NCBI GenBank assembly: GCA_903813345.2
Contig: CAIIXF020000012.1
Coordinates: 36,066,528 to 36,130,527, forward strand
Origin: Owenia fusiformis
Lineage: Eukaryota; Annelida; Polychaeta; Sabellida; Oweniidae
Direction: 5' to 3'
DNA: 64,000 nucleotides
The position numbers were made by a program, and so were the translations under genes. The stretch's first letter is position 1. Each line of letters opens with the position of its first letter. This document shows, piece after piece, positions 230 to 61,700 of the stretch. A model generated the notes under the pieces. The model was not told the DNA's origin and did not search any database. It worked only from the letters and a program-made list of their open reading frames with translations.

Positions 230-2911
230 CTGAAAAAATGGATAGTCATATCGAAAAAATCCAAATAGTTAAAGAGAGAATCAGAGATAGCGAGCAGGCT
301 AAACGAAAAATTTCGATTTTAGAATATTTTTGGCTCATGTCTTTCCTTGTCATGTCTATTCTCTAAAAATCACGAAAGTGCATACTTTATTCGAGGAAAA
401 CTAAAGATTTTTACAATAATGTATTATTTTTCTTTCAGAATGGTTCCCATTCTTATTATTTGGGAGAATTTAAACATTTTTCATCCATTTTTGCACTTTG
501 AATCATTAATAATTTCATCAATTTATAACATAAACTTTGGAAGATATTGTATTTGATATTGCAAGGAATTCATTCATGGTAGGTCAATTACACAAGTTGC
601 TTGTAATTTTGTCACCCCATATATATCTGATTCTGCCTTTAAGAAACTTATTGATATAATATCGGTGATTTATGCTATCAATTATGAAGCAATTGTGACT
701 ACTGCTCTTTTTCTCTTCACATATGGTGCTATTCTAAGAGTTGGGGAACTCACATAACACAAAGACAACTTTAATACCGCACAACTTTTTAATATAACCA
801 TCTCAAATCAAGGCATCCACCTAAGAATGTCTAATTTCAAACACAAAAACCCAACCCAATCTTTCAACATATTAATATCACCCAAAAGGTGCTCAATGAA
901 TTACCCATACTCTGCCATGGTATATTATCTCAAGCGTAGGGGGAACCGACAGGGCCCATTGTTCTTAGATGAATATGAAGTGATTTGTAGGTCTTTATTT
1001 GTGAAACATTTAAAAATTCTCTTGGAGCCTCTGGTATTCATCCTATTAAGTATAACTCTCACAGGTTACGCATTGGCTATGCTACACAACTTATATCAGA
1101 ATGGTTGAGTCAGGATATTGTAACGCAAAAGGAGCGATGGAAATCGTGTTCTGTAAAAAAGTATATAACAATTCAACAATCTAACGCTATCATAATTACT
1201 GTTATGTAATATTATGTAATCAGATAAAAAATTAATTTTTCATGCCCACATATATCTTAGTTTCCTTTTGAAATATAAATCTATGACATAAATAAAGTAG
1301 CAATGAATAGCCGAAAGTGTAACCAGTGAAAAGCAATCATCATTGTTAATTATTTAACTTACTTATAATATTTTTCAGTACCTTTGGTTTTCTTAACTCA
1401 AACTAAAATTAAGACTTTATAGCTTGAGTCTCAATGTATGCTGGACGCTCAGATATGGCGTGGACAGGGTACACATGATGCCAGATGTAATTTGTTCCAT
1501 TGTATCTAAGAAATTGATTCATACGCATTGTAGAGTGTTGCCACTTACCCGTTGATTCATACGCATTGTAAAGTGTTGCCACTTACCTGTTGATTCATAC
1601 GCATTGTAGAGTGTTGCCATTTACCTGTTGATTCATACGCATTGTAAAGTGTTGCCACTTACCTGTTAATTCATACGCATTGTAAAATGTTGCCACTTAC
1701 CTGTTGATTCATACGCATTGTAGAGCGTTGCCACTTACCTGTTGATTCATACGCATTGTAGAGTGTTGTCACTTACCTGTTGATTCATACGCATTGTAGA
1801 GTGTTGCCACTTACCTGTTGATTCATACGCATTGTAGAGTGTTCCCACTTACCTGTTGATTCATACGCATTGTATAGTGTGTCCACTTTCCCGTTGATTC
1901 ATACGCATTGTAGAGTGTTGCCCCTTACCTGTTGATTTATACGCATTGTAAAGTGTTGCCACTTAACTGTTGATTCATACGCATTGTAGAGTGTTGCCAC
2001 TTACCTGTTGATTCATACGCATTATAGAAAGGTGCCACTTACCTGTTGATTCATACGCATTGTAGAGTGTTGCCACTTACCTGTTGATTCATACGCATTG
2101 TAGAGTGTTGCCACTTACCTGTTGAATCATACGCATTGTAGAGTGTTGCCACTTACCTGTTGAATCATACGCATTGTAGAGTGTTGCCACTTTCCCGTTG
2201 ATTCATACGCATTGTAAAGTGTTGCCACTTACCTGTTGATTCATACGCATTGTAGAGTGTTGCCACTTACCTGCTGATTCATACGCATTGTAAAGTGTTG
2301 CCACTTACCTGTTGATTCATACGCATTGTAGAGTGTTGCCACTTACCTGTTGATTCATGCGCATTGTAGAGTGTTGCCACTTACCTGCTGATTCATACGC
2401 ATTGTAAAGTGTTGCCACTTACCTGTTGAATCATACGCATTGTATAGTGTTGCCACTTTCCCGTTGATTCATACGCATTGTAAAGTGTTGCCACTTACCT
2501 GTTGATTCATACGTATTTTAGAGTGTTGCCACTTACCTGCTGATACATACGCTTTGTAGAGTGTTGCAACTTACCCATTGATTCATCTTCCGATTCACAT
2601 TTAATATTCTGTATATCTTCCTGAATTTTTTCCTGCATATATGGCAAAGAAGATCGTATCCCATATGTAATATCAAGTAGCTCGTAAATAAGGGACTCTA
2701 CTCCCTCAATTGTCGCCTTGGCCTTGGACACATCGTTTGCGATGTCAACATTTCCTGCGGAACAATTTTGTGTTTCAGTCTTTAACTCGTTTAATGTCGT
2801 CATCACGTTTTCGATGTCCGTTTTCTTGCATGTCGGAGATTTCCCTTTCTTCAGTTCTGCTGTCACCACAAGCGTAACAAGCATTACTATTGTAACTACC
2901 TTGAGCTGCAT
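103..2911 (-). CDS. Secreted coiled-coil + F5/8 type C protein, gene 1 (exons 1-2, 3' part outside window)
   Basis: Two coding exons on the minus strand: exon 1 2911-2575 and exon 2 229-103. Exon 1 starts at an ATG and encodes a signal peptide (MQLKVVTIVMLVTLVVTAEL), a Cys, then a helical heptad-rich stretch with a second Cys. It ends in phase 1 at donor ATGG|GTAAGT. Exon 2 begins after a pyrimidine-rich acceptor (ttttttcag) and reads in the matching phase. It starts the F5/8C fold with a conserved Cys and the motifs LTASSEWNS and GPSRARLGT, and ends at CA|GTAAAT. Both exons match gene 2 at 24785-33924 in phase, and exon 2 has the same length (127 nt). The rest of the domain (exons 3-4 by analogy) must lie left of position 1. 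F5/8C domains of secreted proteins bind phospholipid or glycan; the coiled coil suggests an oligomer. The ligand is unknown. Intron 1 contains a tyrosine recombinase relic and the donor-site minisatellite. Confidence 0.85.
573..1175 (+). pseudogene. Degenerate tyrosine recombinase of a DIRS/Crypton-like element
   Basis: Three frame-shifted segments, read in order, give the landmarks of the eukaryotic transposon tyrosine-recombinase family. They are TALFLFTYGAILRVGELT (first catalytic Arg in LRVGEL, then a stop near 757), an FKHKN segment with the box-II Lys region, RRGNRQGPLF, then in another frame SHRLRIGYATQLI (the H-x-x-R box) and a final RWKSCSVKKYI with the candidate nucleophile Tyr. At least one frameshift (near 1020) and one stop break it, so it cannot encode an enzyme. 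It lies in intron 1 of gene 1 on the opposite strand. DIRS/Ngaro and Crypton enzymes share these motifs and I cannot separate them without the rest of the element. Confidence 0.7.
1176..1511. other. Intron 1 of gene 1, no recognisable feature
   Basis: AT-rich intronic sequence between the recombinase relic and the minisatellite. I see no gene, RNA or repeat in it. Confidence 0.5.
1512..2574 (-). repeat. 38-bp minisatellite made of copies of the gene 1 exon 1 splice donor
   Basis: About 28 head-to-tail copies of a 38-bp unit. Read on the gene's strand, each unit contains GAATCAACAG|GTAAGTGGC, which closely matches the true exon/intron junction GAATCAATGG|GTAAGTTGC at 2575/2574. Most copies keep CAGGTAAGT, the consensus animal 5' splice site; a few carry GGGTAAGT or have lost the GT. 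The array directly abuts the exon. The paralogue at 33597 has no such array, so the amplification is specific to gene 1. Confidence 0.95.
2575..2911 (-). CDS. Gene 1, coding exon 1 (signal peptide and coiled coil)
   Basis: 337 nt from ATG 2911-2909 to donor G|GTAAGT at 2574. It encodes 112 codons plus one nucleotide. Hydrophobic signal peptide, then basic KKGKSPTCKKTDIE and a heptad-like helix, ending in acidic CESEDES. It is alignable with 33597-33924, which has the same phase. The reading frame runs on past the donor to 2507 only because the intron repeat happens to be open. Confidence 0.85.
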
Positions 2912-33924: not shown

Positions 33925-34060
33925 TGTTCCAACAAGTCGTTTACCGAGACGATGATATCGCAGTCGAGTTCTGCTTGTGCATGGCAGCGATTTCAGTTTA
34001 TATAACACTTAAAGTCATTCACCAAACGGCCCACGTTGCCTCATAAGCATCAAATAAACA
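33925..34060 (-). promoter_or_regulatory. TATA-type promoter of gene 2
   Basis: TTATATAAA (plus-strand 33997-34005) about 75 bp upstream of the ATG, within a block conserved with gene 1 and with 33400-33560. Confidence 0.65.
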
Positions 34061-37467: not shown

Positions 37468-37790
37468 ATGTGCGCAACAATGGCAAAAGACGACATATAC
37501 ATCAATACAGAATCTCCTGGGAAAATAAGAACCAGAAAACCGGAGTGTGACTCCCCAGAAACGGTGTTTGATAGCAATGACAAAACAATTCATAGCGGGC
37601 ATTTTATGATGTCCTATGTCCATGATGCTGATGACGAAGATGATAGCCCCACGGAGAATAAAGGATTTAATTTTAAAGCTGCTACACAAGAGACATCAAA
37701 CACCTATCAATTTGGACCCAAGAATACTAATTCCATCTCCATTGATTCATCACTCACCAAACTTTTTGAATGCCTCACACTCGCATACAG
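37468..37790 (+). CDS. Mondo: Mondo exon 1
   Basis: 107 codons plus two nucleotides. Conserved region I at IHSGHFMMSYVHD, acidic DADDEDD, then SLTKLFECLTLAY. Donor CATACAG|GTGAGT at 37791, phase 2. Confidence 0.92.
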
Positions 37791-40700
37791 GTGAGTTTGT
37801 TTGTTTGTTTTACACTCGCATACAGATGAGTTTGTTTCACAATCGCTTACAGGTGAGTTTGTCTGTTTCACACTTGCATACCGGTGAGTTTGTTTGTTTC
37901 ACTGTGAGTTTGTTTGCAGTCAAAATCTGTGTTTGTGATGTTGTCACGACCGTATGCACTGATGGAGGGGGTTGGTGTGAGCGAGCCCCCTTGGTCAAAA
38001 ACTGTTTCAAAATTATTCACGAATCAGTGAGCCCCCCCCCCCCCCCCCATCGGTCTTTTTTCGTAAACCCCAGAACTTTTTGAAAAGTGAAAAGCTGGCC
38101 AGGGCCTGAATTAAATTTGAAATTAAGATCAAATGACCACAGTGTTATGTGTAGTTTTATGTGGAAAATACATTGTTTAGTTACAATACTAAATTGTGCA
38201 TTTTAGATTTTTGGTTTTATGGGTAGTCGTAGACTATATCCTCTTGTCTGAAATTTGGAAGGAAATTTGGAAGGAAATTCAGTCTATTGGATATAGACTA
38301 GGGTAGTAGGTCAAAACTTCAGCCTCTTATTACTTATTAGGTACTCTCACTGTCTCATCTATTGATATACCTCCCCCATTTCAAAAGTGGTAGTTAGGCA
38401 CCCTGACATTGATTTTCAAAACCAAAATTTTTTCTTGTGTTGTATATGCCACTGTATTCTCCTCGGCTCTTCAGGCCTGTCAACTTGGGAACACCTAACA
38501 TGAGTGACTTGGAAATGTTGAACACCTCCCTTCAAAATGTGGACACCTTGGTCCAAATCTGAAAAATTTCGAACGGAATGCGTGACATATACGGAATTCG
38601 CGTGAAAAGTCCGAACGAAATGCGAACTCCAAAATATATATAGGTTTTGTATCATTTGTGAAACATCACATATATGCACAACAATGTAGAACTGCCCATG
38701 CTTTTGTAAACTCATGAAAATTGAACAGAAATAATATATATAATAATATTTTGACCTGTAAAATGAATGATTTAAGGCCATAATAATACAAGAATTAAAT
38801 AATAATGACCTTATTTTTGCTGTTGCCGTTTGTAAATCAAACCATTTGTATAATAATTATCCTAATTCGGAGTTTGGTATTATTTCAGAAAAAGGCATGT
38901 TGCTCCTAATCAAGGTTATAATGACTGAATGAATACACTTAGTTAAACAATATAGATAATGGGCAGAGGAAAAAATACCTGCAGCCATAAAAGGAGACTT
39001 GTATTTTTTTATTTACTGGTAGCTAATAAATATCATGAGTATATCTGCATTTTCTGATATGAACATCCTGGTTTGCGGAGACAGTTGTTTACATAGTTAT
39101 TCCCAGGGTTTTTATTATATCTCACCACAGAGTAAAACAACATAACCTTGAAATGATTCTATCCCTCTTTCTATGTTCATCTTTATATACCAGTTTTCTA
39201 AGTACAGTTAAAACTAATCCAAATGCCTTAGGGACCAGCCAAAGGTGTTCTTCAGTTATGTAATGGGAGATAACAATTTTGGGGTCAAGAAAAAGTGTTC
39301 ACATTGAGAAATGTTCACATTAAGAGGTGTTCACATAAGACATGTTCACATTAAGAGGTGTTCACATAAGACATGTTCACATTAAGAGGTGTTCACATAA
39401 GACATGTTTACATTAAGAGGTGTTCACATAAGACATGTTCATATTAAGAGGTGTTCACATAAGACATGTTCACATTAAGAGGTGTTCACATAACATATGT
39501 TCACATTAAGAGGTGTTCACATAAGACATGTTCACATTAAGAGGTGTTCACATAAGACATGTTCACATTAAGAGGTGTTCACATAACATATGTTCACATT
39601 AAGAGGTGTTCACCTAAGACATGTTCACATTAAGAGGTGTTCACATAAGACATGTTCATTAGACAGGTTTCACTATATAAGGGAATAGCTGACCTAATTC
39701 ATGTAGATATAAGTTCACTTTTGGCATAGTCCCAGACGACAAGGGCATATCAATTTGAAAACAGCTATGTCAGGCAATTAACCGTTATTTATTTATTGAC
39801 TAAAGATGACTAAAGATTGCACATATCTATTCTGATACTCATAGCATCTTTCTGTTTCACCTGAGCATATATCTGTTCAAATCAGGTCTGTTGACCTGGA
39901 AAATACAAAGTATGTCTATCCTGTTAATAAGGTTATTTTCACCCTGACATCAAGGGTATGTCCAACTTGTCATCCAATGGGATGCTATTAGAGCCATTTA
40001 CCTGTTTTCTAATCAACTATTTTGAATACACACCCATCATGATAAACCATGACATCTCATTTCTTCTCAGCCCTGTTTCAGGTGAAACAGAAACATGAAT
40101 GAGTATCAGAATGACACAAAACCAAATTTTCTGACAAAATATCGATTTGATATCTATAGATTTGAATTTTGCATGTAGAATCACCCATTTTCATTCCTCC
40201 ATTCATCCATTCCTTTAGTTCATCACATCAATCTACGATTTTCAGACAGATAAGCTGCTATTTTTCTGAACCATTCGTCATAACATTTAGTGGTGTTCCC
40301 TTACTGGAGATTTCCATGATAGGTTATGGCTACTTCTTTTTCTCTTTCCTTGTTTTGGAGAAGCCTAGCAAGTTCATAATATAGACCCAACAAATGGTAC
40401 AATTTTAAAATGTAAAAACCCGTGTGTGTTAACAAGTTGTCCTAAAGCTGAATGTCCCTACTTGATCACCAGGGTAACCACAATATAGAATCACAATGAA
40501 GATATATGATATTACCAGGGTAACCACATATTGTTCTAAGTTTGTTTTCTTTATTTTATGATAATACCAGTAAAATACAAATATGTACTTGGTCTATGCT
40601 GAGGCATAATATTGACCCCATTAAAATGAATTGCATTATATATAATTATGATGCATATAAGTGTTTGGATAAGAAATAATAATGAAAACTTGAAGACATG

Positions 40701-43700
40701 TCAGAGAGAGATTCTGTGTTACCATTAACCAATATATTTATGGAGTAGTGGTCTCCCCAGGATTTTTTCTCAAGTTGGGGCAAAATTTTCATTTTCACAA
40801 TTCAGACCAATTCAATTGGTCAAAATATGCCAATTTTTCATAATTTTTTCTCATTTTCAACTGGGTGCAAATGGATTTTCACGTGGGTGCAAGCCTGTTT
40901 TTAAATCTCATGTAGGTGCTGCTGCGCCCACTTGTTTTAATGCTGGGGAGACCACTGTGGAGATTAATTATTTTATAATTTATTGGTTCTTTATTTGATG
41001 AGAGAGATATGGAACCATTATGACTTATGATAGTAACTCCTGCCTTATCTAACACCTCTTGACCAGCCAAAGGTATACTTGCCACTGCTGTAAAAGTGTG
41101 TGTAAATAAATAAATAAATAAATAAAAATACTGTAAATTGGTTTTAATTTCAAAACAAGCCCAATCTTTATAATAGTGCCAATTTAAAGCAATTTACAGT
41201 ATTCACATTTTGTATTCACATTTCTGTTCACATTTTGAGGTTATATAAATAGACGTTCGGATTGATTCGATCAATTCTGAAGAGCATTGTTTTTCATCTT
41301 CGTATTGATTTGATTGAAATACTATGGGTGACATTTACAGTATTCACATTTTGTATTCACATTTTGATGTTATATAAATAGGCGTTTGATTTGATCAATT
41401 CTGAAGAGCATTGTTTTTCATCTTCATATTGGTTATACTGAAATGCTATGAGAGACATAATCAGGCTATTGTATCAGCACAAATACAAAAATTGATCCAT
41501 CGCAAGCTACTGCAACTGTGCGCAGAGTTCAGCGTCTGTTAAAGTGCAGAAGGGTAGCATTCATATTTAGTAGGCTAAGCATCCATAAATAAGCACAATT
41601 CATAGCTAGTATTTGCTATTCAACTGACAGCTGATGGTTTAACCTACTATTTCATGGCCAACACATTAAATTTGAATAAAATAGAAGCAGATACTTCTTG
41701 TATTTAGCTTTCTCAAGAAAGTAATAATATTTAAGTTAAATCACATTTAAATGAATTGGCTATAAAATCACGAATGCTAATAACATTTATGCACTGTCCT
41801 TAAAATGGGAGGATGTATTAAGTATGTGTGAATATAACATATTTACACACTATGATTCGTTGCAATCTGAAGGTGTAGTTGTTGTTGTTGAACTTAACAC
41901 TTTGGGTCCAAAGTTTCTCTTATGTACTCATTGTACTCAGCTGGTCATATCAATAATTACCAACTACTGTTATATCTACTGTTGAACCCTACCCTGAGCA
42001 TATTATAGCTTAGTTATGAACTAACCTCTCTGAAGAGTTAAGACAGTCGTACAGTTTAGCGACCCTACCCCCACTACCAACGACCATCAGAGACCCTACC
42101 CCCACTATCAAAGGCCATCAGAGACCCTACCCCCACTATCAACGGCCATCAGAGACCCTACCCCCACTATCAACGGCCACCAGAGTCTTGGACATAAATC
42201 ATAAATGATGTTGATCTCAATTGCACTGATATTTTTCAGCTAATCAGCAAACAGAAAGAAATATGTTTAAATAATGTTGTAATTTTGGTCAATACTGGGT
42301 AAACAATGACTTCAGTCCAAATGTTCATACGTGTTTATTTAGAAAATCGATATTCTGGCAACAAAGCGCTCTGTTTGGATCCACTCATTCAGAGGTTTAA
42401 CTTTAAGTATAGACGAAGCTATCTTTTAAGAACCTGTCAATTTATGATTTACATATATGTACCATGCTTGAGAATTCACATGTAATTTTAGTTTTCATAT
42501 AAAGTTCAATTTTCATTCAACTGGTTGTATTGCATCATCCTTACACGTTTCTTAAAAGATAAGGTTTGTCTACACTATTAAAGTTAAAAAGAAACCTTTG
42601 GACTTGCTGACCAGAGCTCGGTGTTGCCAAAAAGACAATTTTCTCCATATGGTAATTTTCTCTTGACACCATTCTTGCCAGTATTGACCCATATTTAAAC
42701 CTCATTGATTTTTTCTGCATGCTGATTGGTTGAGAAAATCTCAGCGCAACGGGCTTGTTTATGTTTATTTATTATTTGAAATACACACAAAATACAATAT
42801 ATGAACTGGGTGACACTTTAAAAAGTGTATATTCCCAATATTAGACAAAATAATACATGTGTGTTGTCATACCTATTAAATGCAGTTGGGGACCTGCCTA
42901 TGTATTCATCTATTTGAACGAAAGTATTGGTTTGTCACATCATAATAGACCAAATGAGGTAAAGTTTTGGCATAATGTCAAAAGTGTTCTTGAATACAAT
43001 TATACCAATGAGTGCAAATATACTTACAATGTAGTTTGAACATTATTTGGAACAGAGGCAAAATCAGGGGGTACAGCAGAGCTTATAGGAAATATAAGTC
43101 AGTTTAGTAAAAAACAAACAACAACAAAAAAACCACAAAAACAGCATAACTGTATGTGATTGAAATGTTACCATATGGGTCAGATATACTGAGCAATCAT
43201 ATTGAGAGCAGTTTTGTTCTTCGAAGAAACCAAAAGAGCATACACGAGAGAAAGCATGGTGAGGGCAATGGGTGATAAAGAGACAGCAAAATATCAATTG
43301 AGTTATTATGTTTCCAAAAATAGTTTTTTTAGTTCTCTTTTAAATGAATAGAGGCTTTTTATTTGTTTAAGTCTTTCTGGTAATTTGTTCCAAAGCTGGG
43401 GTACTGAAATGGATATAGATGATTTACCATAATTTGTGCGAAATTTAGGTTGATCATAGGTCATTCTATTTCTGGTGTTATAAGGATTTCTTTCATGAAC
43501 TGTTGTAAAGAGACGAGGGTATATACTCCTATAGTTATCTAAGTCATTTTTCCATTTGAACATAAATATACATTTCGCTTGCTTATTAATGTCAAAAATA
43601 GTAATAAGTTTTAACATTTCAAAAAGTGGAGAAGAATGTGCTCTATAGTCACTATTTGTTGCAAGACGTACAAACCTTTTCTGGGACAAGTGAAGTGGAT

Positions 43701-46700
43701 TTATTGATGTAGGATTTGCATCCCCCCAAACAAGATTACCATATATTAGATATGAATAGATCAAGGAGTAGTAAATATTTGTAAACCCTTGAATGTTTAA
43801 GATATGCTTAATCTTGTACAAAATACCTATGGTCCTTGAAATTTTCATATTAACTGAAGATATGTGATCTTTCCATGTCAAATGTTGGTCAATTATAATG
43901 CCTAAAAAACTGATCGTTGAAACTTGTTCGAGTTTATTTTCATTGAGATATATTTTGAAGTTACTTGGATCATAGTGCTTCTGTCTTGACGTAAAAATGA
44001 TGTATTTGGTTTTAAAAATGTTTATAGAAAGTCTATTAGTCACCAGCCATTCTTCAATATGTTTTAGCTCGGTGTTCAATATATCATTGAGTTCATTTAG
44101 ATTTTTGCCATTTATCAATATATTAGTGTCATCTGCAAAAAGAACAAAAAATAACCTTGGAGATGATAAGTATATGTCATTAATATAAACAATGAAGAAA
44201 AGGGGACCTAGTATGGAGCCTTGAGGGATTCCACAGTTAATGGTATTTGGCTCAGAAATAACATCTTTGTATGAAGTTCTTTGAATTCTATTTTTGAAAT
44301 AACTTTTTACCAAATCAAGTGATACGCCACGTATACCATAAAAATATAATTTTTAAAAAAGAATTTCATGGTCGATAGTGTCAAATGCCTTGGAAAAATC
44401 TAAAAATAGGCCAATTGAGTATTCTCCGAGATCAATAGATTTTCTTATTTTTTCAACAAAATTTAGAACAGCCATAAAAGTTGACTTCTTTTCTCTAAAT
44501 CCAAATTGATTAGAATATAAAATTACCATTTTGTCAATAAAAGTAGAAAATCTCCTATGCATTAATTTTTCAAGTAGTTTAGAGAATACAGGAAGGACAG
44601 AAATGGGGCGATAATTTGTAAATAATTTGTCATTATCTTTTTTATAAATTGGAATGACTTTGGCGGCTTTTAAATGATCTGGAAATATACCATTGCTAAA
44701 CGATAGATTAAATATATAGTCCCCGATCTGATTTCCAAAAGGGCTCTAGAAAAGGGGTTTTGTTGTCCGGTACTTTCCCACATAAAATGATTGTACCGTT
44801 TGAAAGAACAGACTTCCCTCTTAAAGAAAACACCTCTTCTATTGATGTAAACAGGGGCAAAAGGCACCAAAAACGGGGTTAGACAAGGTGGCATTCTAAA
44901 GTCTCACTTTCTTGTCATCACGATTCCAGGTAAACCATTAGACGGATTTACTTCAAATTTTCACACATGTTACATGGTAAGAAGTTCTAGAGCTGATTAA
45001 CTTTGCGGCGGCCATCTTGCATTCTGGCGGCCATCTTGGAATTTTTTCAGATAAATATTGTCATCGTGATTCCACAAAAACCACATATTAACAGATGTAC
45101 TTGAAATGTTCACACATGTAACATGGTAAAAAGTCCTAGACCTCATTATTTTTTCGATGGCCATCTTGCATTCTGGTGGCCATCTTGGAAGTTTAAAGAA
45201 AAATCTTGTCATCACGATTTCAGGAAAACCAAACGGATTTACTTCAAATTTTCACACATATCACATGGTAAGAAGTTCTAGACCTAATTAACCTTTCGGT
45301 GGCCATCTTGCATTCTGGCGGCCATCTTAGAGTTTTTTGGATAAATCTTGTCATTGTGATTCCAGGAAAACCACTTTACTGATTTTCTTGAAACTTTTAC
45401 ACATGTTACAAGGAAGGTTACATGCTACCTTTTATATTGATATAAACAGGGGCAAAAGGCAGTAAAGTGGCGTTACACAAGGTGGTATTCTAAGGAGAAT
45501 GTTATCTATTTTTCTGTATTTTAAACCACATAATTTGACATAAATGCATATTTGGTGTATGGTATCATGTTTTATATTGATAGAAACATGGGCAAGAGGC
45601 GCTACAATGGGGTAACACATGGTGATATTCTAAAATACATATTTTTACTCTGCTTCTGTACTTTATACCACTTAAATGCATTTTGTGTATGACATCGATA
45701 ATAAATAAAATAACTACATTTCATCAAAAAGAAAAAAGAATATTGAAAACGTCAAACATTTCTTGGAAATCCATTATTGCACAGTGATTTTTTAGAGCGA
45801 AATGTATGCTAAATTGGCCTTGATCTGAGTATATAACGGAATTAAAGCTCTTTTAAACGAAAATGTAAATGTGTGGAAAACCTTTCACTGTGCATCATTT
45901 CAACGAAATGTTCTTCATGCAGTTGAATTATCTTCTGGACAGGTGATCACACAGAAGGAGAGACCTGCGTATCATATCCTTACTAAATAAAAACAAAAAT
46001 GACAAATGAGAAAGGAAAAAAGTGTAAAGCAACCTAGTGGGAAAAGCAAACTGTAAAGTGTAAAACTGGCAAACAAAAATCAAACCTGATTATCCCAAGA
46101 CAATAATCTAATATGGGAATAAACAGCATCCACACCGTTCAATGACCAATTCCTCATCAACGACAACAACTCCGAGGGACATTCCATTCATACTGAAGTC
46201 ATTAATTAAAAATACATGTTGAAGAAAAATTGAAAATAATGATATCCAATACTCATAAGATCAAAAATAGTTGTAGATACTATAGTACTCATAAAAGCTG
46301 CAGATAACGTTTCTTCATCGGGAAAGCAAGCTGCTGTCTCTTTTAACTAACGAGCTGGTTCGGAGCACCAGCATGTCAAACTATGTGAATGGGCTCTGTA
46401 TCCACAATGTTGCGAGTTCGAGACACATGTGCTCGTTGCGTTTAATAATCAACAAAAATCACTTAAACCTGCACTGAAACTGTGTGTCAGATCGATATAA
46501 GTATAGGGTTTGGAAACTAATTGTACCAACAAAAAGAACTTAAAAAGCACTGCTACAATATCAACATAAGCTTTCAATAGTAGTGACGATGCAGAAACAT
46601 GCAAAATGTCACCACACCTTGTTAAGTATACATAACATTAACCACTGAACAGTGTCAAGATAAACGTTCGAGGCTATTACAATATGTCACCCAATCACTA

Positions 46701-49700
46701 GTGGTGGTGACATAAAAATAATGTATAGAAAAATCTACTGAACAAAAATAAACTTTGTGTTAGAAGAACTGATTGTTTACTCTAAGTTTTCAACTAAATA
46801 TATTTCTAATAAGCAATGTTTTATCGAAAAGAAAAAATAATTTCATGTTATATAAAATCAAATAAATTAATTATATTTTTTTTCGTTGTGTTAGTTATAC
46901 CAGTAATAATAAACCTGTTTTTAAAGTGGTGTTAACTAGACTATATAATTTAACAGTCATAAAAGTAATAATAAACCTGTTTATAAAGTGGTCTTAACAA
47001 GACTTTAGAATTTAACAGTCATAAAACCTAAAAAAATATACCAGGAAGGAACCATTGTGAATGTAAATGTATAAAGCACTGATGCCATAGCAAACGGAAC
47101 AAAAGTTATAACAGAACCTAGCATGGAGAAAGTGTAACTGGTAAATTGTAATAAAAATAGTATAGATCATGATCTAACATGACATAGTATGCCTTACAAC
47201 TCATCCTCCCTAACATTATTAAAGACTACTAAAGTATATTATAGTGATCCACTCGATTATGCTGGTTACCTAAACGGTTTGTTTCGGTAACAAAATGTGG
47301 GAACATCGAAGGTATGATTTTTCCTTTTTCCTTTCACACTTTGTAGGCAGAATTCCCACGACATTTTTTCTCACAAACGTGTATCAGTATCATATGTTTA
47401 AGAAAATGTGCATATTTGCAAACAAATAGTTCAGAAGACAACATAATCGTACATTTAATTCCTCACTTAAGTTACATAAACGGTATTTCGAAAAAACAGT
47501 TCAGATCTGCACTTTTAACCCAAACCTTTATGTAACATACGTTAGGAATTAAATCGACGATTCTGTCGTCTTCTGAGCTATTTTTCGCAAACATGTACAT
47601 TTTCTAAGACATATGATACTGATTCATGTTTGTGAGAAAAAACGTCGAGAGGATTCTGCCTACAACACATGAAATAAGGAATAAGGACAAATCGTACCTG
47701 TAATCGAGCGGATCACCAGTGTATATACAGGGTGAGATAATTCATATTATGGCATCAACTTTGACAAGTTGGTTCATCCAGTCGTCAGGTAAAAGATTTT
47801 CAGGTAATTCATTTTCTTCCTGATCTTCAACGTTTGGTGTAATGGTGTCATCAACTGGTTCAAATTCATTGTCGCTCTCATCAATATCATCGTGCTGATT
47901 GGTTGGACAGTTCTCACACACACCTTTGCGGCACTTACATGAACTTCCACAAATGAGATCCTGTTTCTTACAACTACATCTCATTGAGTCACACGCTCCT
48001 TTACAACTACAAGCAACAAGCTCCATTATTTCTTGTGGGGCATGACCGTTTTCCATCTACTTAATTTGTAGTTTATTCCCTTTAAATGTCCAACCATGTA
48101 ATGTGGGGGATTGATAATCAATCATTGATTTGCCTGCGTTTCGCCAAATATAGGCCTGATAGTTGGCTCTATTTATATGGAGAATGAGAGCATCCTTTGT
48201 TGGTGGTAAATGCTTTGACTGTATTTTATATTTATCTACAAACTTCCGAGATGGCCGCCAGAATGCAAGATGGCTATTGGAAAGTTAATTAGCTCTATAA
48301 CTTCTTACCATGTAACATGTGTGAAAATTTGAAGTAAAACTGTTACGTGGTTTTCATGGAAAAGTTAGTCAGCTCTAGAACTTCATACCATGTAACACAT
48401 GTGAAAATTCGAAGTAAAACTGTGAAGTGGTTTTTCTGGAATCGTGATTACAAGATTTATCTATAAACCTTCCAAAATGGCTGCCAGAATGCATGATGAC
48501 CACTGGAAAGTTAATCAGCTCTAGAACTTCATACCATGTAACATGTGTGAAAATTTGAAGTTGATCTGTTAGGTTGTTTTCCTGGAATCACGATGACAAG
48601 ATTTATCCCCAAATTTCCAAGATGGCCGCCAGAATGCAAGATGGCTGCCGAGAAGTTATTCACCTCTATATTTTCTTACCATGTTACATGTGTGGAAATT
48701 TGAAGTAAATCTGTTTGGATTTCCTGAAATCGTGATGACAGGATTTATCTTAAAACTTCCAAGATGGCTGCCAGAATGCAAGATGGCCACCGAAAAAAAT
48801 AATGAGGTCTAGGACTTTTTACCATGTAACATGTGTGAACATTTGAAGTACATCTGTTATGTGTTTTTTGTGGAATCGCGATGACAATATTTATCTGAAA
48901 AAAATTCCAAGATGGCCGCCAGAATGCAAGATGGCCGCTGCAAAGTTAATCAGCTCTAGAACTTCTCACCATGTGACATGTGTGAAAACTTGAAGTAAAT
49001 CCGTCTGATGGTTTACCTGGAATCGTGATGACAAGAAAGTGAGACTTCAGAATGCTACCTTGTTTAACCCCGTTTTGGTGCCTTTTGCCCCTGTTTACAT
49101 CAATAGAAGAGGTGTTTTCTTTAAGAGGGAAGTCTGTTCTTTCAAACGGTACTATCATTTTATGTGGGAAAGTACCGGACAACAAAACTTTTTTTCAGAG
49201 GGTCCAGATCAGGGACTAATATGCAAAAGGGGCTGTAAGAGTGTGTAACCACACTCCTTTATGACAAACGGCTTAAAGTCATCAAGACCAGCAGCTGAAT
49301 TTTTCAGATTATTTATTTCAGTTTGGATTTCATCATGAGATATTGGATTAAGAAATAGAGTAGATTCTGTTTGACCTAAGTTCTGCATGAAATCAAGTGG
49401 GTTCTTTTTTGATTTGGGGATTTTTGAAGCAAGATTCTCACCTACAGTTGAAAAAAAGTTGTTAAATTGATTTGCAATTTGCTGTTTGTCTGTAATTTCA
49501 ATGTTATTGTGAAGAAAAGATTCAGAAATATTGGTTGATTTATTTTTCCTTTGAAGTAATTCATTTAAAATTTGCCAGTTAGCTTTAATATTACCTTGGG
49601 TTTTTTGAAATCTATTGTTGTAGTACATTTTCTGAGAGTTTTTAATTATTCTTTTTAAGGTTTTTGCATAAGTTTTGTAATTGATTTTATTTGGTTGGGA

Positions 49701-52700
49701 AGGATTTCTAAGGACCTTTTTATATAATTTGCTTTTGTTCCTGATGGAAGTAAGAATGGCAGAAGTGACCCACGGTTTATTATTATTATTATAGATCCTT
49801 TTTATAGTAGTTTTAAGAGGAAAGCATCTATCATAGTGTTTAGTTAAAATATCTTCAAATATATTATATGACGCATTAGAATCATTATTACTTATAACCT
49901 CATTCCAATTTTCACTTGAAAGTAATTCTTTAAATAGTTGAATATTTGGGTCAGTATATTTTCGCTGTTTGACTTTGATGTTTTTTATTCTATTAACATG
50001 TTTTTTACAAGAGGCATAAACAGGAAAATGGTCTGAAATATCGTTAAAAATTATACCACATGAGTCTGCCTTAGAGTCATTTGTAAATATGTTATCAATA
50101 AGAGTGGCAGAAGTTGATGTGACTCTTGTTGCTTTGTAGATCAGGGGAACTAGGTTAAATGAAGTCATCATATTATAAAAATTCTGTGTAGGAATATGCT
50201 GAGCTACTTTAAATAAGTCAATATTAAAGTCACCAGTGACATAGCAAATTTTATTCTCCAATGAAAGTTGAGATAGATAAGTGTTGAGATCATTATTGAA
50301 ATCTTCAACATCAACATTAGGCGGCTTATATAAACAAGTGAATAATACATTTTTGCTATTTTCCATAACAATCTCAATAGTTATCACATCACAGTCATTA
50401 TTGTTAAATTTGAGATCAGGTCTTTCAATAATAGTCATGGAATTATGAACATAAATGCCTACCCCACCTCCTCTCGTGTTGCGTGATTTAAAGTGACCAT
50501 TGTAATTCAAGAATTTGGAAAAATATGATTCCTGGTCCTTATAGAGCCATGTTTCTGAAAGTGCTATTACTGAAATGGTCTTGTCAATAGCAGAAATGAA
50601 TTGATTTAAGACCAAGGTTTGACTCAGCAGTGAGGGTGAGGCTATTTAACTGTAAAATTGAACTACCTCTGGGGCCTTGACTCAGGGTACAGCATCTACC
50701 CTACCTCCATCACCTGTTCCCTTACCACCCAGAAGTTACTTTATGCTTGAATGAATCATGTACTTCTGCAGTAAGGTGAAGTTAAAGAGCCCCATCTTTG
50801 GTGTTTTCAATCTGTTTTGTATGAACATTTTGGCAATCTTAAATGTATTATTAAATCAATTATGAGTGGAATAAAATGGGTCAATAGTATTTTATTTGTT
50901 TGTCCTCAGGAGGGCAAGGGAGATATGAAAGTATTACTACAGTAAAACAATTTAAAACAATCTACAGTAAAACAAGTCTAATCCGAACATTACCGGGACT
51001 AGCCATTAATGTTGGGATTAGCAGGTACTCACATTCAAAGGTTTTTTAATATTTGACTATGGGAGTTAACAAAATTGCAACTGGAAAAAGGTGTTCAGAA
51101 CAGCAAGTGTTCGCATTTTGAGGTATCTCAATATGTGAGTCAATGGGAGATATAAAAATTGGAGGAACTAAGAATTGTTTAAATTAGCAGGTGTAACATC
51201 TCAAGGTTTCTTAATATGTAAGTCAATTTGAGGAAATTCGGTACAACGGCAAAGTGTTCACATTGAGAGGTGTTCAGATTAGAAAGGTGTTCAGATATAC
51301 AAGTTTAACTGTATTTTATCAGCTTAACAGCTTGCCAAGCTTTGCACCCAACCTGTTTATGTTTATTAATTGTAACAGGATGCTTACTTTTATCATATGC
51401 AACAATTGCTTTTACAATTGTGGGATTTTTATTGTTTGCTTTTATGGTTAAAAAACATGTTCAGTGGTTGCTACAATATTTTAAAATGATATTGGAGATA
51501 GAGTTGATACTATGAGTTTATATTAAGTCTAAGGCAGAATGGGAATATCAAACATAGCTTAAAAATATGTATTTTACAGGCCTGTAGCCGGTTTTTGCCA
51601 ATTGGGTTCATTTTAAAGATTTCAGGGGGGTTCACATATGACCATTCTGGCCCAGAATCACTTGAAAAGTGCTGCTCAGAATGGTGAAAGAATTTTTTGC
51701 CAGGTAGGATTCTCTTGACCCCCCCCCCCCTCTATGGGCATTATATGCAATATTACATATATATGGAAATATACATCTTTATCAAGCTGCAAACTCTTGC
51801 ATGTAAACCTCTGTCTTGTGGTTCAGAAAATTCCATTGGTATTTTTGTCAAAAGTAATATGTTGTTAACCAAACCACAAGCAAAGCAAAATATGCATCTA
51901 AAATATAAATGTACTCATATTTTTCAATATGGTATTGCACTTTGGTCTTTTGATTACTTATTTTAGCTTTGATTGCTTACAATTACCTTTGATTGCTTGC
52001 TTATTGGTTATTTTGATTGCTTATTGCTTGTTTTTGATTTGATAGACCTGTGTTTTCACTGCTTTGACTTCTATGTACTATAAACAGTAAAGTAACATTT
52101 TCTTAACTTTGTCAGTTTAACATACATCTCAAATCTCAGTGGACCAAAAAGTTGGTCTTTTCTACCTTAGCTCATTTATTAGAACCTTGTTTATTTGAAA
52201 ATGACATATTCTAGTTTACAGAGGTTGAACTGACCTAGTATTATTGTGAACTACCCTGGATATACCTGCCAACAAAACAGTTGCTACAGCAACTAGAGAT
52301 ATTGAGATCATATCAAATTATGCTGTCTCGTTCCCTTTCCCCTTCGCATTTGTTTGATTTAACTTCTTAAAAGAGCTTCGTTTTCTCTGTTTGAGAAACC
52401 TCCAAAACTCGGCAAGCCAACTGGAGCTTATCATTATCAGAAGGATGATTTTTTCTATATATGACCATCTTGTCTGATATCATTGTTCAGCTAATATTGA
52501 CCAATCTGAGTCTATAAAATTGTCTAAACTATTCAGAGATTAGTTTCGAACTTAACTCTGCTCTGACAGGGTCATTTCTTAGACATGATGATGCTAGAGA
52601 AAGCAGAAAGATGTGTGAAGCCTTGTAGCTTTCTGCTTTATCACTGAGCCGTGAGCCCCTCTTTTTCTGATGCTTGAGATAGATGTCTGTTTTCCGATGG

Positions 52701-55700
52701 AGAGTCAGGCAATGATGCTTGGATGTGTTTGTTGTCACTCAGAATGATAATTGAGAGTTTATTTGCAAGGGTGATGATATGTCATTTGAAATCATCATGG
52801 GCACACATAATTAAACACATAGAATTGAAATACAGTGAAACTTGTCTATATTGAACACACTATTTTGAAATCATCATGGGCACACGTAATATATACACAT
52901 AGAATTGAAATACAGTGAAACTTGTCTAACTTGAACACACTATTTTGAAATCATCATGGGCACACATAATATATACACATAGAATTGAAATACAGTGAAA
53001 CTTGTCTAACTTGAACACACTATTGTGAGATTAACCTTGGCACACATAATTATACACATAGAATTGAAATACAGTGAAACTTGTCTAACTTGAACACACT
53101 ATTGTGAGATCAACCTTGGCACACATAATTAAACACATAGAATTGAAATACAGTGAAACTTGTCTATATTGAACACACTATTTTGAAATCATCATGGGCA
53201 CACATAATATATACACATAGAATTGAAATACAGTGAAACTTGTCTAACTTGAACACACTATTGTGAGATCAACCTTGGCACACATAATTATACACATAGA
53301 ATTGAAATACAGTGAAACTTGTCTAACTTGAACACACTATTGTGAGATCAACCTTGGCACACATAATTATACACATAGAATTGAAATACAGTGAAACTTG
53401 TCTAACTTGAACACACTATTGTGAGATCAACCTTGGCACACATAATTATACACATAGAATTGAAATACAGTGAAACTTGTCTAACTTGAACACAATATTG
53501 TGAGATCAACCTTGGCACACATAATTATACACATAGAATTGAAATACAGTGAAACTTGTCTAACTTGAACACACTATTGTGAGATCAACCTTGGCACACA
53601 TAATTATACACATAGAATTGAAATACAGTGAAACTTGTCTAACTTGAACACACTATTGTGAGATCAACCTTGGCACACATAATTATACACATAGAATTGA
53701 AATACAGTGAAACTTGTCTAACTTGAACACACTATTGTGAGATCAACCTTGGCACACATAATTATACACATAGAATTGAAATACAGTGAAACTTGTCTAA
53801 CTTGAACACACTATTGTGAGATCAACCTTGGCACACATAATTATACACATAGAATTGAAATACAGTGAAACTTGTCTAACTTGAACACACTATTGTGAGA
53901 TCAACCTTGGCACACATAATTATACACATAGAATTGAAATACAGTGAAACTTGTCTAACTTGAACACAATATTGTGAGATCAACCTTGGCACACATAATT
54001 ATACACATGAAATTGAAATTAGATAAGGCCTTTTGGAGGATTTCCTACTCGCCTGAATACAGTGAAACCACTGGAACCAGCCAAAAGTGTTCTGATAGGC
54101 AGTTGTTCAAATTTCCAAGTTTTTTAACATTGTTCTCTATAGCAAATTAAAAGATGGGTCTTTAACACAGTGTTCACATTGAGAAGTGAAAATTAGACAA
54201 TATGACAAAGTTAATGGCCATTCAATTATGAGAATGTACTTAAAGTTATGCTTGAAACTCCCTTAGAATCACCAGTATCTATTTAAAGATTTCATCAATT
54301 TTCTTTTTGACTAGTGATATATTTAGATTTAGATAAAGCTATTTTAACTTCAGGGTCATTTTACTGATCACGAGCAGGCCCAATGATCATAAAAAAGGTT
54401 AGCCTGAATTAAGTACAAGTATATTTACATTTGCAGAAAGTGAAAACATAACATTATATTGGATTTCAATATGTGATATATTGGTGCACTTTTAGCCTTT
54501 TATAATTGGTAAACAGTGTTGTGGCGATATACAATTATGGAGACTTTTATTATAAATTTGCTTAAGCATAAAGTTTATTTCATTCTCATAAGAGAATTTT
54601 TTTAGTATATTTAGCTATTCAGTTTTTTTTTTCAGTATGCTATTCAGTGCAAAAAAATATGAAGCCCTGTCATTCCTTTTTACAACCCTCATATCCTATA
54701 CCTAGACACAGGGAATCAAAATGTTTTCTTCCTTTAAGTACAAATAGATCTTCTACAAATAAATTGTTACACCAACATTTTGATTGACTTAAAACAGAAT
54801 TACGCTCTGAGTATTATAATAGAATACTGAAATATACTTTCTTCTTAGGTTATTTTTAAGCCTCTGCAGGGGCTTTTGCCTCTGGGTCCCCAGCCCCCCC
54901 CCCCCCTCAGATCCGCCAGTGCTCTAGGTAATGGGTATACAACCAACTTGAAGAGTATTGTAATGGTCTTTGCCTTTTGTCTTCATTAAGTATTTGTCAT
55001 CATTGAACATTTGTCATCATTGAACATTTGTCATCATTGAGTATTTTTCACCATTTAGCATTGTCATCTTGCAATGAGTGATTGTCATCATTGAGTACTT
55101 GCCATCATTGAGTATTTGTCATCATTGAACATTTGTCATCATTGAACATTTGTCATCATTGAGTATTTTTCACCATTTAGCATTGTCATCTTGCAATGAG
55201 TGTTTGTCATCATTGAGTCTTTGCCATCATTGAGTATTTGCCATCATTGAGTATTTATCTTCATTGTGTATTTGTCATCATTGAGTATTTGTCATCATTG
55301 TGTATTTGTCATCATTGAGTATTTGTCATCATTGTGTATTTGTCATCATTGAGCATTTTTTGTCATTAGGCATTTTCTTCACCCTAACTTTAAGGAAAGA
55401 TAAGGTGAAAGGCAAGATCAATTTGGAATTTAAATTGATATTTGTAACAGTTCCATTAAGTTTGATATGTCTCAGAATGTACTTATATTTCACAGTGAAT
55501 TTGGTATTCAGTCAAAGTTATCTAGGACGAACATCTAGTAAATTCAATTCAGATTTACCTATTAAAGACCCCTTTCACTTTTATTTAAGCAAATGTTTGT
55601 TTTAACAGTTTATTGTTTTTATGTATGGTTCATCCATTTCCTGAGATATTACGGCATATCACCTGATCTCAGCGTTAAAAACAACAGCTTGGTGTTTTAC

Positions 55701-58700
55701 AGTGTTTTATTGGATCAGCTGATTCCAGATCATAATATTCAGAGCCCTTGCAAGATAATAACTCAATATTGCAATAATCACGGGATAAAACTCATTTAAT
55801 TATTCATTTAGGTCTTGCAAAGCATCGTGTATCTTAATATTCGGATTTCTTATTGCGAGACAAAATTATAAATCGTAATATTCAGGTCGGTATGAAGATT
55901 CATGTCACAAGATTAGGTTTTGGCACTTTAAACCAAAAGTAATTGGTTTACTTTTAGTCTATTGTATGATATTTTGAATGTATATATATGTCTGAACTTG
56001 ACACAAGTATTTCTTCCTGACTTTCCCTGGGTCCTTATTTTACAAGAAATTAGTAATTTTTAGATCTTCACAAAATTGTCATTTATTACAATTGAATAAA
56101 AGTTTAATGGAATATTTTACGTCTCCTAAGCTATCTGACCAGAATTAGCCATCTGGTGGTGAAACTGGTAACTACCTACTAGCAACTATGTAAATAATCT
56201 GAAAATTTTTATACTACAATGCCATGCTCCATCTATTGTTCAATAAATGCAGAATTAATATAATTGAACATTTAAATGAATATGAGCTTGAGCCTATGAT
56301 CAAATGTATTTAACTTTTGAAATTGATTGTTTTGACATTTTACAAATGACACTGACCTGGTCAGTTCATGTAGGATTAAAATACCTACTACTGAAAATCA
56401 GTTCTAAATTCAACAACTTTTTCACCATCATTTGCATTATACCAATTATAAACAAAGTACATCGTACGTTTGATTGCTACGGCTTTTTACTTCTTTTTAC
56501 GTATGTTTTTTTGGTGTGTTTTGAAGGAACAATAAATTACCACTAAACATGCACGAGTATCATAGTATTTTCATTCAAAGTTGCTATGAACACACTCTTT
56601 ATTTCTGTAGAATAAGGTCATAATTTCTACTGAATGTCCCATATAATTAATAATATCATTTCTTGTATTTACATAAACAAACTATAGAATATAGCTTGGC
56701 TTGGCTATTAGATATGGTGAAACTTATATTTTATGTAGTGTAGCCAGGATCTAAAGTTAGGCGTGGCAAATGTGAATAGGTGAGGCAAATGTGAATAGGT
56801 GAGGCAAATGTGAATAGGCTGTGTTCTCCCTGACTGAAAAATGCGTGGCGTTCGCGCCACGCACATTGTGGCTGCGCCACGCTGATTTATTGCGCGCCAC
56901 ACATTTATTAACAGCGCCACGCATTAGACTTTGACAGAAAAATTTCCCAAAGTGAAAATAGAAATTGAAAAAATTCAAAGTTTTAATCACATCAAAATCT
57001 CAGCCCGTTTTACTTGAAAACGATACAAAATGCTCTATTTAGATAAAGAAATGTCTGTACTTACCTTTCTTGCACTAAAGAATCTTCAATTTACCTTCTA
57101 TTTTGATAAAAAACAGTTTGATTTGCACAGAAATGAAACATGTTTTTTCTAGGTCAGGACTCACAGCCTCCGATTTTGAAGAGTACACTGAACGAAAATG
57201 AACATGTGTGCACATTTTCCCGGGAATTTCGGACTCAATAATTATAGTTGAATTATATTGAAGAAATATGTGGCCACATACTGAAAATTATTTTGTATAT
57301 TGAACTTTATATTATATTATGGAAATAAATATTAAATTGAACATTGAATTAAAACAAACCTCTGAGCATTTATATTGCAACATGGCCTATTGTCATTAAA
57401 GTAGATGATTATACAGTGCTAAATTTCATTTGTTTTGATGTTATGTAATTTCATAACATCAAAACAAATGTTTAGCATATTTATATCAATTGGCTGTTGA
57501 TGCAAATGATTGAGATTAAGTAACTCCGCGAAGCGGCGCCGATTTTTTTTAAGCACGTTTTTGTAAACTTATCACCACCCTAATAATTTGGCCACCACCC
57601 ATCAATTTTTATTGAAACTTTTTCACCACTCACTTTTGAAAAATTAGGGAGAACACTGATAGGTGAGGCAAATGTGAATAGGTGAGGCAAATCTGAATAG
57701 GTGAGGCAAATCTGAATAGGTGAGGCAAATGTGAATAGGAGAGGCAAATGTGAATAGGAGAGGCAAATGTGAATAGGTGAGGCAAATGTAAATAGGCAAG
57801 GCAAATGTGAATAGATGAGGCAAATGCCAATAGATGAGGCAAATGTGAATAGGTGAGGCAAATGTAAACAGGTGAGGCAAATCTGAATAGGTGAGGCAAA
57901 TGTGAATAGGAGAGGCAAATGTGAATAGGGGAGGCAAAATTTTGTTGAGGCAAATAAAAACAATTCTTGAAATCCACTCATGCTGCTTTATTCAGCGATA
58001 ATGAACAACTACACTGATAACACCAGATGCAATGTTAATAAATAAGCGACAAAACTTATCAAATGCTCACTTGTGAACTATCACGAAATTCCAGATCAAT
58101 AGGTATGCAGGGAATTCAGATGTCGTCTATTTATATTTGACGAAGTAAAACGCAAGAAGAAGCATGATTTATTGCGTTAGAATACAATAGAATACAATAT
58201 TAGACATATTATTGCAAAACGATTACGAGGGACAGTCATTGGTTTCAAATATCCTGATTATGTTAGACGCAGTCTTACCTCTAAGTGCAAAGGCAGAAGT
58301 TCGAGAATTTAAAACAGATTTCAGATTTCCTCTTGAAAATCTTACAAAACACAAGTATCTGACAACAAACAAGCGGAGTCTTGAGGTGTCTAGGTGAGTG
58401 ACAAATATGAGATGAGATGGTTGACTAGAAAAATCATTTTCCGTGCCAAAACAAAAATTCTGCAAAAAAAGTGAAAATGCAAATTTCTGTGGTTTTTCTG
58501 CGGCGACGCGGAATCAGGGAATACTAGTATGAGTGTTTAATTGCTTATTTTTTAGATTCAAAGTTGTTCCAAACATTTAAAATTTTACTGTAGTTCGACT
58601 TTATTTATATAGTAGCAGTCAAAAAACATATATTTTTATAAAATTTTTGTGCAGCATTTGCCCTCTTGCCTCATGTCAGGCCCAGCCCATGTATATTCAT

Positions 58701-61700
58701 ACTTTTACAATTTTTTTAACATTTTTCATTGTTTGCTTTTGAGCTCAAGTTTAATCCCTTACATCAACCGCATGCAGCTTAGCATAATGTTTTCTAGATT
58801 TTCTGTATCCAATTTAGTATAATTGTTAGTACAGTACAATTCTTTTTTTTAAATAGATTTAAAGAATTAATATAGAATGAATTAAAATCTGCAAAGTATT
58901 ATAGTATTAAAATAGAATGTTAGTTGTTTTATTGCTAAATCCTCTTTTTTGTTCATGTATTTAGTTCATGTATGATATTGATGTTTTCTTTTCTGGTCAT
59001 TCCCTCACTGCATGATCTCTGAGTGCACACATTCAAGATATCCATGGTACTAACTTACTATATCCCAGCATTCTTTAGTCCCATACTTGAAATCCTTTAA
59101 TCTGATTGGCCAATTGATTGTCATGTGAGTAAAATCGTCCCTAAACATAGACTCCTTCTAAGTTGCATCAGTTTTCAGAATGATCAAAAATTGAAGAATG
59201 AATGATTCTAAAATGTGTGAAGTTTACTATACAGTCTGCAAAGTGAACTCTTGTACTTGTTTGTGAAATAGATTTCCTTGTAAAATCTAACAAATTTTGA
59301 AAAAAAAATCAGAAGATTACTTTTTGTTGATGTATATAGAAGCTAACGACATCTACACAATCGATTTAATGTTAATGAAGGAGGAATAGGATCGGATACT
59401 GTTTTGTATAATCTGAGGAGGTGACACTAAAAGTGGGATTTAGTTTAATCTTGAGATGGGTTCAAAATCATTCCTGTACAGATACTACTATTATATTTAC
59501 ATATACAGGTGAGAGTGATGAGATTACTATGAAATTACTATGTATATATTGTTTACTATGTTTACAAATGACAGCTTTATAGTTGATAGCCAGCTTTTGC
59601 TAAAGGGAGGTTGTGGATGATTTTATGCATGACTGTCTTGTTTCAGACTTTAAATGAAAGTAAAGGCCAAATTCAAAGGCTAGGAGACAAAACATGAGTG
59701 CATTAAATCACCAACAATTCATTGAGTTGTGAGCTTTGTTCTTTTCACATACTTTTAATTTGGTGCCGACTTTAATTTGGTAAAGGTGAAATAGAAAAAA
59801 GCCAATTTACATCTTCACCAAATTAAATAGCACCAAATTAACCCAATCTAAAGTATTGCTCAAGATTTTAAAAAATACATAATTTATCCAGTTTTTTCAA
59901 GTTTGATATTTTGACCCGCAAGCACTAAACATTGTAAGTTTTGTATTTAGGTTGCTAAATATGGGATATGCACATCTTTTAAGGCAGAATCAGATCTACA
60001 GGGGTGAAAAAATTACAAGCAACATGGACAATTGACCTATAATCTATTCTTTATAATCTCAAATACCATATCTCCCAAAAGATTCACGATGTGTTTTAAA
60101 TTGGTGAAGTTATTATGGATTCAAAGTTCAAAAATGGGTGACAAATATGTAAATTCTCCCAAATAATAATAATGGTAACCATTATTATAGAAAAATAGTT
60201 ATTGTAAAAATCTTTAGTTTCCTTGAAATAAAATGTGCACCTTAGGAATTTTTAGAAAATAAACATGACAAGGAATGACATGAGCCAGAAATATTCTAAA
60301 ATTGAAACAATTTTTTGTTGGCCTGCTCGCTAGATCTGATTCTCTCTTTAACTTAGGATAAGCCCTATCTATCTAAAACTTCCAGTTCACCTAATGTCAT
60401 GCCATTATCATATGTTAGGATTATCAAAATCTAGTAAGTTTAATTGTTATTTTCTCTATGATTCAGGTGGTGAACTGACATCATAACTGTTATTTTCTCA
60501 ATATATCCAGTTGTAAACTGACATCAGAATTGTTATTTCTCTATATTTCCAGTGGTAAACTGACATCATGATTTTTATTTTTTCTATATTTCCAGTGGTA
60601 AATTGACATCAAAATTGTTCTTTTCTCTATATATCCAGTGGTGAACTAACACCATGATTTTTATTTTCTCTATTTTTCCAGTGGTAAACTGACATCATAG
60701 TTGTTATTTTCTCTATATTTTCAATGGTAAACTGACATCATAATTGTTATTTTCTCTATATTTTCAATGGTAAACTGACATCATAATTGTTATTTTCTCT
60801 ATATTTTCAATGGTAAACTGACATCATAATTGTTATTTTCTCTATATTTTCAATGGTAAACTGACATCATAATTGTTATTTTCTCTATATTTCCAGTGGT
60901 AAACTGACATCACCAAGATGGAAAACATTCAAAGGTCTCAAGCTGATGCTAAAAGACAAGATACGATTAAACAACATGATTTGGCGGGAATGGCATATGC
61001 AATGTGAGTAGCGAGAAACCAGGTTTTATTACTTTGTGTTATGTACAATGACATGAATAAATATTTAGCTACTTTCAAAACATCTTCCGATCTCAGGGCT
61101 TCAAAATCCAGAATGTATTCTTTCTTTTTACCCCCTGCGATAAGCAGTTAGCATTTCCCTGATTAAGAACTCGCAATCTGATTGGCTGTCGCAACACTGC
61201 GACAGAAACCATGTACAAGTCATTTCGCATAATTAGATCACGTGATTCAGTTTAATCGGGCGCTTCCAAATTGGTTATAGCAGGGGGAAGAAGGAGGTAC
61301 GGATTCTGGATACCTGCTTAGGAGGATGCTTTCAAAAAGTCAATTTCATCAAATTAATATGTTGACATTACTGATTCATAATTTTTTTCTTTTTGCAATG
61401 ATTGCATAGATTTTAAAAATTCTAATAATTATTCAGAATCTAGTCCCTAATGTAACAGAACTGAAGTTGTTGCTTGGAAGGTATTCCTTAATAAAAAATG
61501 AATTGTTAATAAAAAATCTAATTCCATCAGTCATTCCTTGTTGACAGAAATTATTTGAAGTAAAATAAAATAAGTTATTGTCACAATTACATGAAATTCA
61601 AATACATGTACATGCAAAATGTCAGTTTCAGTAATACTTAATATTATGTAACCATAATTTAGTAATGGTTATTTTCATATAAAGATTTCTAGAATTTATA

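Follow-up and report, generated by a model that had tools for sequence, protein, structure and literature searches.

Introduction

Splice junctions amplified as minisatellites have been described in lancelets under the name of 'mirages', in Adh3, troponin C, the globins BflGb6 and BflGb9, and PGBD5 (PMC3087553, PMC3902484). Minisatellite-like tandem copies lie there over an exon-intron boundary, at acceptors as well as at donors; according to the available portions of these reports, many but not all copies carry an AG or a GT, the inner globin copies are homogenised, and normal splicing is reportedly left undisturbed (PMC3087553, PMC3902484). Internal tandem repeats were also found at human exon-intron boundaries in segmental duplications and, in the available part of that study, proposed as a source of new introns (PMC2812944). 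Earthworm metallothionein genes contain minisatellites within their first intron, which the available text does not say span a junction (PMC12783039). Our literature search found no annelid minisatellite that spans a junction. Cuin and Porter are said to have described, in 1995, a human interferon-induced minisatellite that gives rise to multiple splice donor sites; the gene is reportedly IFI6 (6-16).

Here we describe such an array in the annelid Owenia fusiformis, within a stretch of 64,000 nucleotides (contig CAIIXF020000012.1 of assembly GCA_903813345.2; hereafter the window). At the exon 2 acceptor of a gene that we identify as Mondo, it has the same anatomy as the lancelet mirages. Its units lie across the exon-intron boundary, with the true junction in the last of them; an AG is present in many of the copies but not in all (five of the ten decoys in register, one shifted, four CAA); and the inner copies are homogenised to the exclusion of those at the edges. 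What differs from the lancelet cases, as far as the available portions of those papers describe them, is the annelid host, the presence of arrays at both ends of one intron, the sampling of junction frequency, and an AG-less block adjoining the exon, which is a feature of Mondo. In the human interferon-induced gene, as in Mondo, a minisatellite reportedly multiplies a splice site, but that case concerns the donor side and a human gene. The human boundary repeats resemble our arrays in lying at boundaries and changing gene structure; they are described in the available text as belonging to recent paralogues, half of them in coding sequence, whereas our arrays add copies to the intronic flank of conserved exons (PMC2812944). 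The O. fusiformis arrays are the known kind of mirage in an apparently new lineage, with an estimate of their frequency.

Results

The Mondo gene and its exon 2 acceptor array

Exons 1 and 2 of the gene share one reading frame across their junction, LAY-S-GKL. Their combined peptide (residues 34-139) matches ChREBP chain 5f74_B with E=2.1e-24 through the LAYSGKL junction, and the conserved N-terminal region of Mondo/ChREBP runs across it without a break. No Pfam family was matched by the joined peptide. Some 16.6 kb beyond the end of the window, at C12:36147157, the same strand has a partial HLH match (19-53 of 53, E=4.5e-4). The ChREBP match supports the identification of the gene as Mondo, and the partial HLH match may belong to its C-terminal bHLH-zipper. 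The parts of the gene and of the array at its second exon are as follows.

37480..37790, plus strand: coding part of Mondo exon 1, from ATG to donor, ending in TACAG, with AG|T encoding Ser across the junction (open frame, ChREBP match)
37791..60896, plus strand: Mondo intron 1, about 23.1 kb, with an array at both ends (sequence for the junctions; reading frame and ChREBP match spanning them)
60441..60697, plus strand: six distal decoy acceptor units, AG kept (sequence, register alignment)
60698..60869, plus strand: four proximal decoy units reading CAA (sequence, register alignment)
60701..60894, plus strand: 194 nt devoid of AG, up to the true one (AG gap scan)
60870..60912, plus strand: eleventh unit, with the true tract, the true AG (60895-60896) and the first 16 bases of exon 2 (TRF, sequence)
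60897..61003, plus strand: Mondo exon 2, starting SGKLTSPRWKTFKGLKLMLKDKIRLNNMIWREWHMQ, with donor T|GTGAGT (sequence, ChREBP match)

A second in-frame ATG is found 12 bases upstream of 37480, at 37468. Shortly after exon 2, 61078-61200 is a dispersed repeat with at least 40 other matches at 94-97% identity.

A first-pass annotation of this DNA had reported ten 43-bp copies of the polypyrimidine tract, the AG and about 16 bases of exon 2. TRF reports 60441-60912 as a 43-bp unit in 11.0 copies (88% matches, score 713), and no array with a score of at least 50 turned up when 60001-61400 was shuffled 50 times by single nucleotides. Read in register, ten units are intronic and the eleventh contains the true exon 2 acceptor. 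The spacing is 43 bp throughout, except for the unit at 60527-60568, which has 42 bp. The 43-bp units consist of 27 intronic and 16 exonic bases; a polypyrimidine tract, the AG position and the 16 exonic bases are found in every unit, and the last unit is the true site. The copies had been attributed to the exon 2 acceptor, and this direction is borne out: SGKL is common to exon 2 and ChREBP, which makes the exon the original and the intron units its copies. A 40-base pattern of the CAA unit, with up to three mismatches allowed, matched the genome five times, always inside the Mondo array, and the exon 2 region has a single full-length match in the assembly. The Mondo acceptor array is a genuine feature.

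The AG had been reported as kept in the six distal copies and lost from the four proximal ones. The four proximal units do read CAA and all six distal units have an AG, but it stands in register in five of these only; in the outermost unit it has moved by one base (60465) and the in-register letters are GG. Compared with the true unit, units 1 to 6 reach scores of 37 to 40 out of 43. Among the CAA units, units 8-10 are identical to one another and differ from the true unit at two bases, and unit 7, the first of the block, is one base further off. Two stray AGs fall within the array, at 60526 and 60699, and the AG-free run before the true AG ranks second longest among the 3156 AG gaps of the window.

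Products and choice of the decoy sites

Conceptual translation from the six distal decoy AGs reached a stop in every case, at a distance of 3 to 21 codons. The first-pass annotation had expected any decoy acceptor to add Ser-Gly-Lys-Leu-Thr-Ser and then a stop. Truncation of Mondo is indeed common to all six, but the exact SGKLTS-stop comes from two decoys only (60551 and 60680); the remaining four would yield RW-stop (60465), SCKLTSELLFLYISSGKLTS-stop (60509), SGKLTSKLFFSLYIQW-stop (60594) and SGELTP-stop (60637). The three GTGAGT sites downstream of exon 1 give R-stop.

With generic splice-site weights, the decoy at 60680 outscores the true acceptor (10.5 against 8.6). By our reading, the true site is the last one of an acceptor array and the first one of a donor array, and consequently yields the shortest exon. 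Exon definition would favour the shortest exon, whatever the strength of the copies, and the true Mondo acceptor probably wins by its position. The motif CTGAC, which resembles a branch point, occurs in each of the four CAA units; in the last decoy it falls within the copy of the exonic bases, 32 nt upstream of the true AG (counted to G60896), where it is a plausible candidate branch point.

Donor arrays in the window

Two further arrays in the window carry donor sites, one of them at the other end of Mondo intron 1, on which the first-pass annotation was silent.

37775..37902, plus strand: exon 1 donor tandem array, CATACAG|GTGAGT, with the G of the true donor at 37791 (TRF, sequence, spacing, donor scores)
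1514..2586, minus strand: 38-bp unit in 28 copies with CAG|GTAAGT, at the end of ORF 2507-2926 and separate from Mondo (TRF, sequence)

The exon 1 donor decoys are at 37826 (dead, reading ATGAGT), 37853 and 37884, and another GTGAGT follows at 37904. Mondo intron 1 is hence amplified at both ends, and at both the nearest decoy is dead. The minus-strand ORF 2507-2926 has a hydrophobic start and matched no Pfam family above the cut-off. The first GTAAGT of its array would be the true donor; GT is kept in 23 of the 28 decoys, the two nearest included. Three likely splice sites are thus amplified within 64 kb.

Other features of the window were noted in passing. A similar minus-strand ORF, 33589-34008, has no TRF array adjoining it. 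The units of the tandem arrays 8811-9642, 44910-45410 and 48281-48441 look related by eye, one of them inverted, and these arrays are probably one dispersed repeat family. Transposase-like and reverse-transcriptase-like ORFs, named by eye, are found on the minus strand at 17518-18600, 43306-44745 and 49209-50645.

Frequency of junction arrays in CCT, kinesin and myosin genes

The frequency of such arrays was sampled with exon matches to CCT, kinesin and myosin in the same genome, 232 exons in 127 stretches. Junctions were called with the generic weights and arrays with TRF, and a junction was counted as inside an array if the array extended at least 4 bases on both sides of it with a TRF score of at least 50. 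For CCT, 52 of 66 rows were used. For kinesin, 114 of 144 rows were used; we left out 17 of 18 rows that repeat one exon (G000:C2:23266359-23269174) and 13 others, which were joined exons, contained several stops or were the weakest matches. For myosin, 66 of 92 rows were used, the omitted ones being 12 rows of a repeated-exon cluster, 13 with stops or weak matches, and one exon. The repeated kinesin exon piece (profile 290-327, 18 rows) recurs at 159-bp steps, and the copies read in L036, which together with L037 covers the ends of the repeat, each have a tract and an AG. At G000:C9:37986009-37994334, one part of the myosin head (profile about 18-84) is matched twelve separate times, hundreds of bases apart; the matches are perhaps mutually exclusive exons.

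Of the 342 junctions called over the three families, 16 fell inside an array: 11 among 193 acceptors and 5 among 149 donors. Another 12 arrays with a score of at least 50 overlapped exon matches but held no called junction. Base-by-base inspection of the CCT and kinesin hits found clean tandem tract-AG-exon or exon-GT copies in 13 of 14, L058 being doubtful; the two myosin hits were judged by even spacing only. Since a junction can occupy just one unit of an array, we preferred as null the share of noncoding ancestral bases that lie in an array unit, which is 1.48%, 1.10% and 0.86% at TRF scores of 50, 100 and 200. Against this null, junctions in arrays are in excess 3.2, 4.2 and 4.7 times, respectively (p from 7e-5 to 2e-6), and a bootstrap over stretches gave ratios of 1.6-5.6 at score 50 and 2.1-8.3 at score 100. 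With raw array coverage as the null there is no enrichment: in CCT and kinesin 15 of 243 junctions are in arrays, below the 10.6% of noncoding bases that arrays cover. The enrichment is driven by kinesin, and the bootstrap intervals include 1 for CCT alone and for myosin alone. Taken as a replication, myosin gave 2 of 99 junctions, a ratio of 1.9 to 3.4 that is not significant alone (p from 0.12 to 0.29).

Genome-wide, pairs of donors CAGGTAAGT with 15 to 45 bases between them number 214, against 83 for the reversed pattern; the single donor patterns number 4020 against 4455 reversed. Most of the first 100 donor-pair places listed belong to one dispersed repeat and a handful of large arrays, and the pair excess backs junction amplification weakly. 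As to the lineage, an annelid haemoglobin-linker family matches this genome in three places above its cut-off and none of 14 control genomes, and a search for GFP, as a sign of lancelet origin, drew no match either here or in its controls.

Decoy sites close to the true site

The first-pass annotation had proposed that AGs near the true site are selected against, a usable AG just upstream being a competitor. The comparison covered the decoys of 25 arrays: the three of the window and 22 of the survey, some of these selected by eye. All copies were aligned to the true site. Seven of the 12 overlapping arrays without a called junction were added by eye (L006 twice, L009, L011, L012, L064 and L082); the doubtful L058, the weak L007, L008 (twice) and L081, and L115 were left out of the set.

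In these 25 arrays, AG or GT is kept in 120 of 139 decoys (50 of 57 acceptors, 70 of 82 donors). There is no general excess of AG or GT loss near true sites: the nearest decoys are intact in 21 of 25 cases, no less often than the others (99 of 114). The decoy dinucleotide columns vary like their flanks (11 of 42 against 119 of 504, Fisher p=0.71), and the decoy sites accordingly look like drifting passengers. As a rule, then, selection against AGs near the true site is not supported, and spare splice sites mostly look like tolerated by-products. Mondo is an outlier. Whereas AG is kept in 45 of the 47 acceptor decoys of the other 14 acceptor arrays and is absent in two, an AG in register is absent from five of its ten decoys. 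Unit length shows no sign of coding preference, 10 of 25 periods (one averaged) being divisible by three, near one third.

Discussion

We consider it quite probable that the Mondo array is a minisatellite straddling a splice junction, a mirage in the lancelet sense, whose decoys are passive, whose true site is chosen by position, and whose CAA block records one loss of AG that has spread. The minisatellite would have grown from a tandem duplication across the exon-intron junction. Because the duplicated segment includes the tract and the AG, each new copy begins as a decoy acceptor. The copy that touches the body of the exon would be maintained by selection on the protein and on splicing, while the copies behind it would drift in the intron. 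What keeps splicing correct is presumably that no other acceptor lies as near to the exon 2 donor as the true one (exon definition, shortest exon), and the array unit also provides the CTGAC motif, a possible branch point, ahead of the true AG. All four CAA units depart from the true unit by the same two substitutions, and three of them are identical, so the block looks like one event; most simply, it would be one mutation that spread by duplication of the unit next to the exon, and it may well be neutral.

The alternative closest to the first-pass annotation holds that selection stripped the AG from the units near the true site, as competitors, and that the AG-less unit spread under this selection. 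The four nearest units do lack an AG, the AG-free run is unusually long, as AG exclusion would predict, the nearest exon 1 donor decoy is dead as well, and each distal decoy AG would truncate Mondo. Yet the loss appears to be a single mutational event, and a block made by one event cannot show selection. By chance, one of the seven possible positions of a contiguous block of four among ten is the proximal one, with a further factor of 1/3 for the donor, and elsewhere intact sites persist right beside the true one: in kinesin L063 (7 of 7), L060 (4 of 4) and L042 (3 of 3), in CCT L008 (8 of 8) and in the second donor array of L011 (19 of 19). We regard selection on the Mondo block as unlikely.

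Decidedly less probable still is a regulated ladder of decoys, in which the distal AGs would divert some Mondo transcripts to early-stop, decaying isoforms and the number of units would tune output. Four of the six distal AGs score at least as high as the true site (8.6 to 10.5 against 8.6, with the generic matrix) and all lead to a stop, but similar arrays in unrelated genes, those of CCT and kinesin, argue against a device specific to Mondo. That the array is an assembly artefact or a product of collapsed haplotypes seems to us the least credible of these explanations. A single assembly was used, and in the available part of the lancelet report the draft assembly seemed to have misassembled one such array (PMC3087553). 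On the other hand, the Mondo units differ among themselves and keep a regular 43-bp spacing with one of 42; three arrays occur in one window, and the 25 compared arrays are spread over nine chromosome-sized contigs.

A broader idea, to which we hold tentatively and at somewhat less than even chances, is that splice junctions are preferred birthplaces of minisatellites genome-wide. About 1 in 20 junctions would be arrayed, at several times the intronic rate per ancestral base, through a junction-linked duplication shared with lancelets that leaves from one to dozens of ignored decoys per array.

The arrays are natural experiments in splice-site choice, with up to 28 copies standing beside a real site and often matching the consensus equally well. 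If splicing stays exact, then position, not strength, decides, and each arrayed gene offers a measurement of this. The arrays are also relevant to the lengthening of introns and to the origin of new ones, as proposed for lancelets. Arrays at several percent of the junctions sampled in an annelid would mean that more than one lineage has the habit seen in lancelets.
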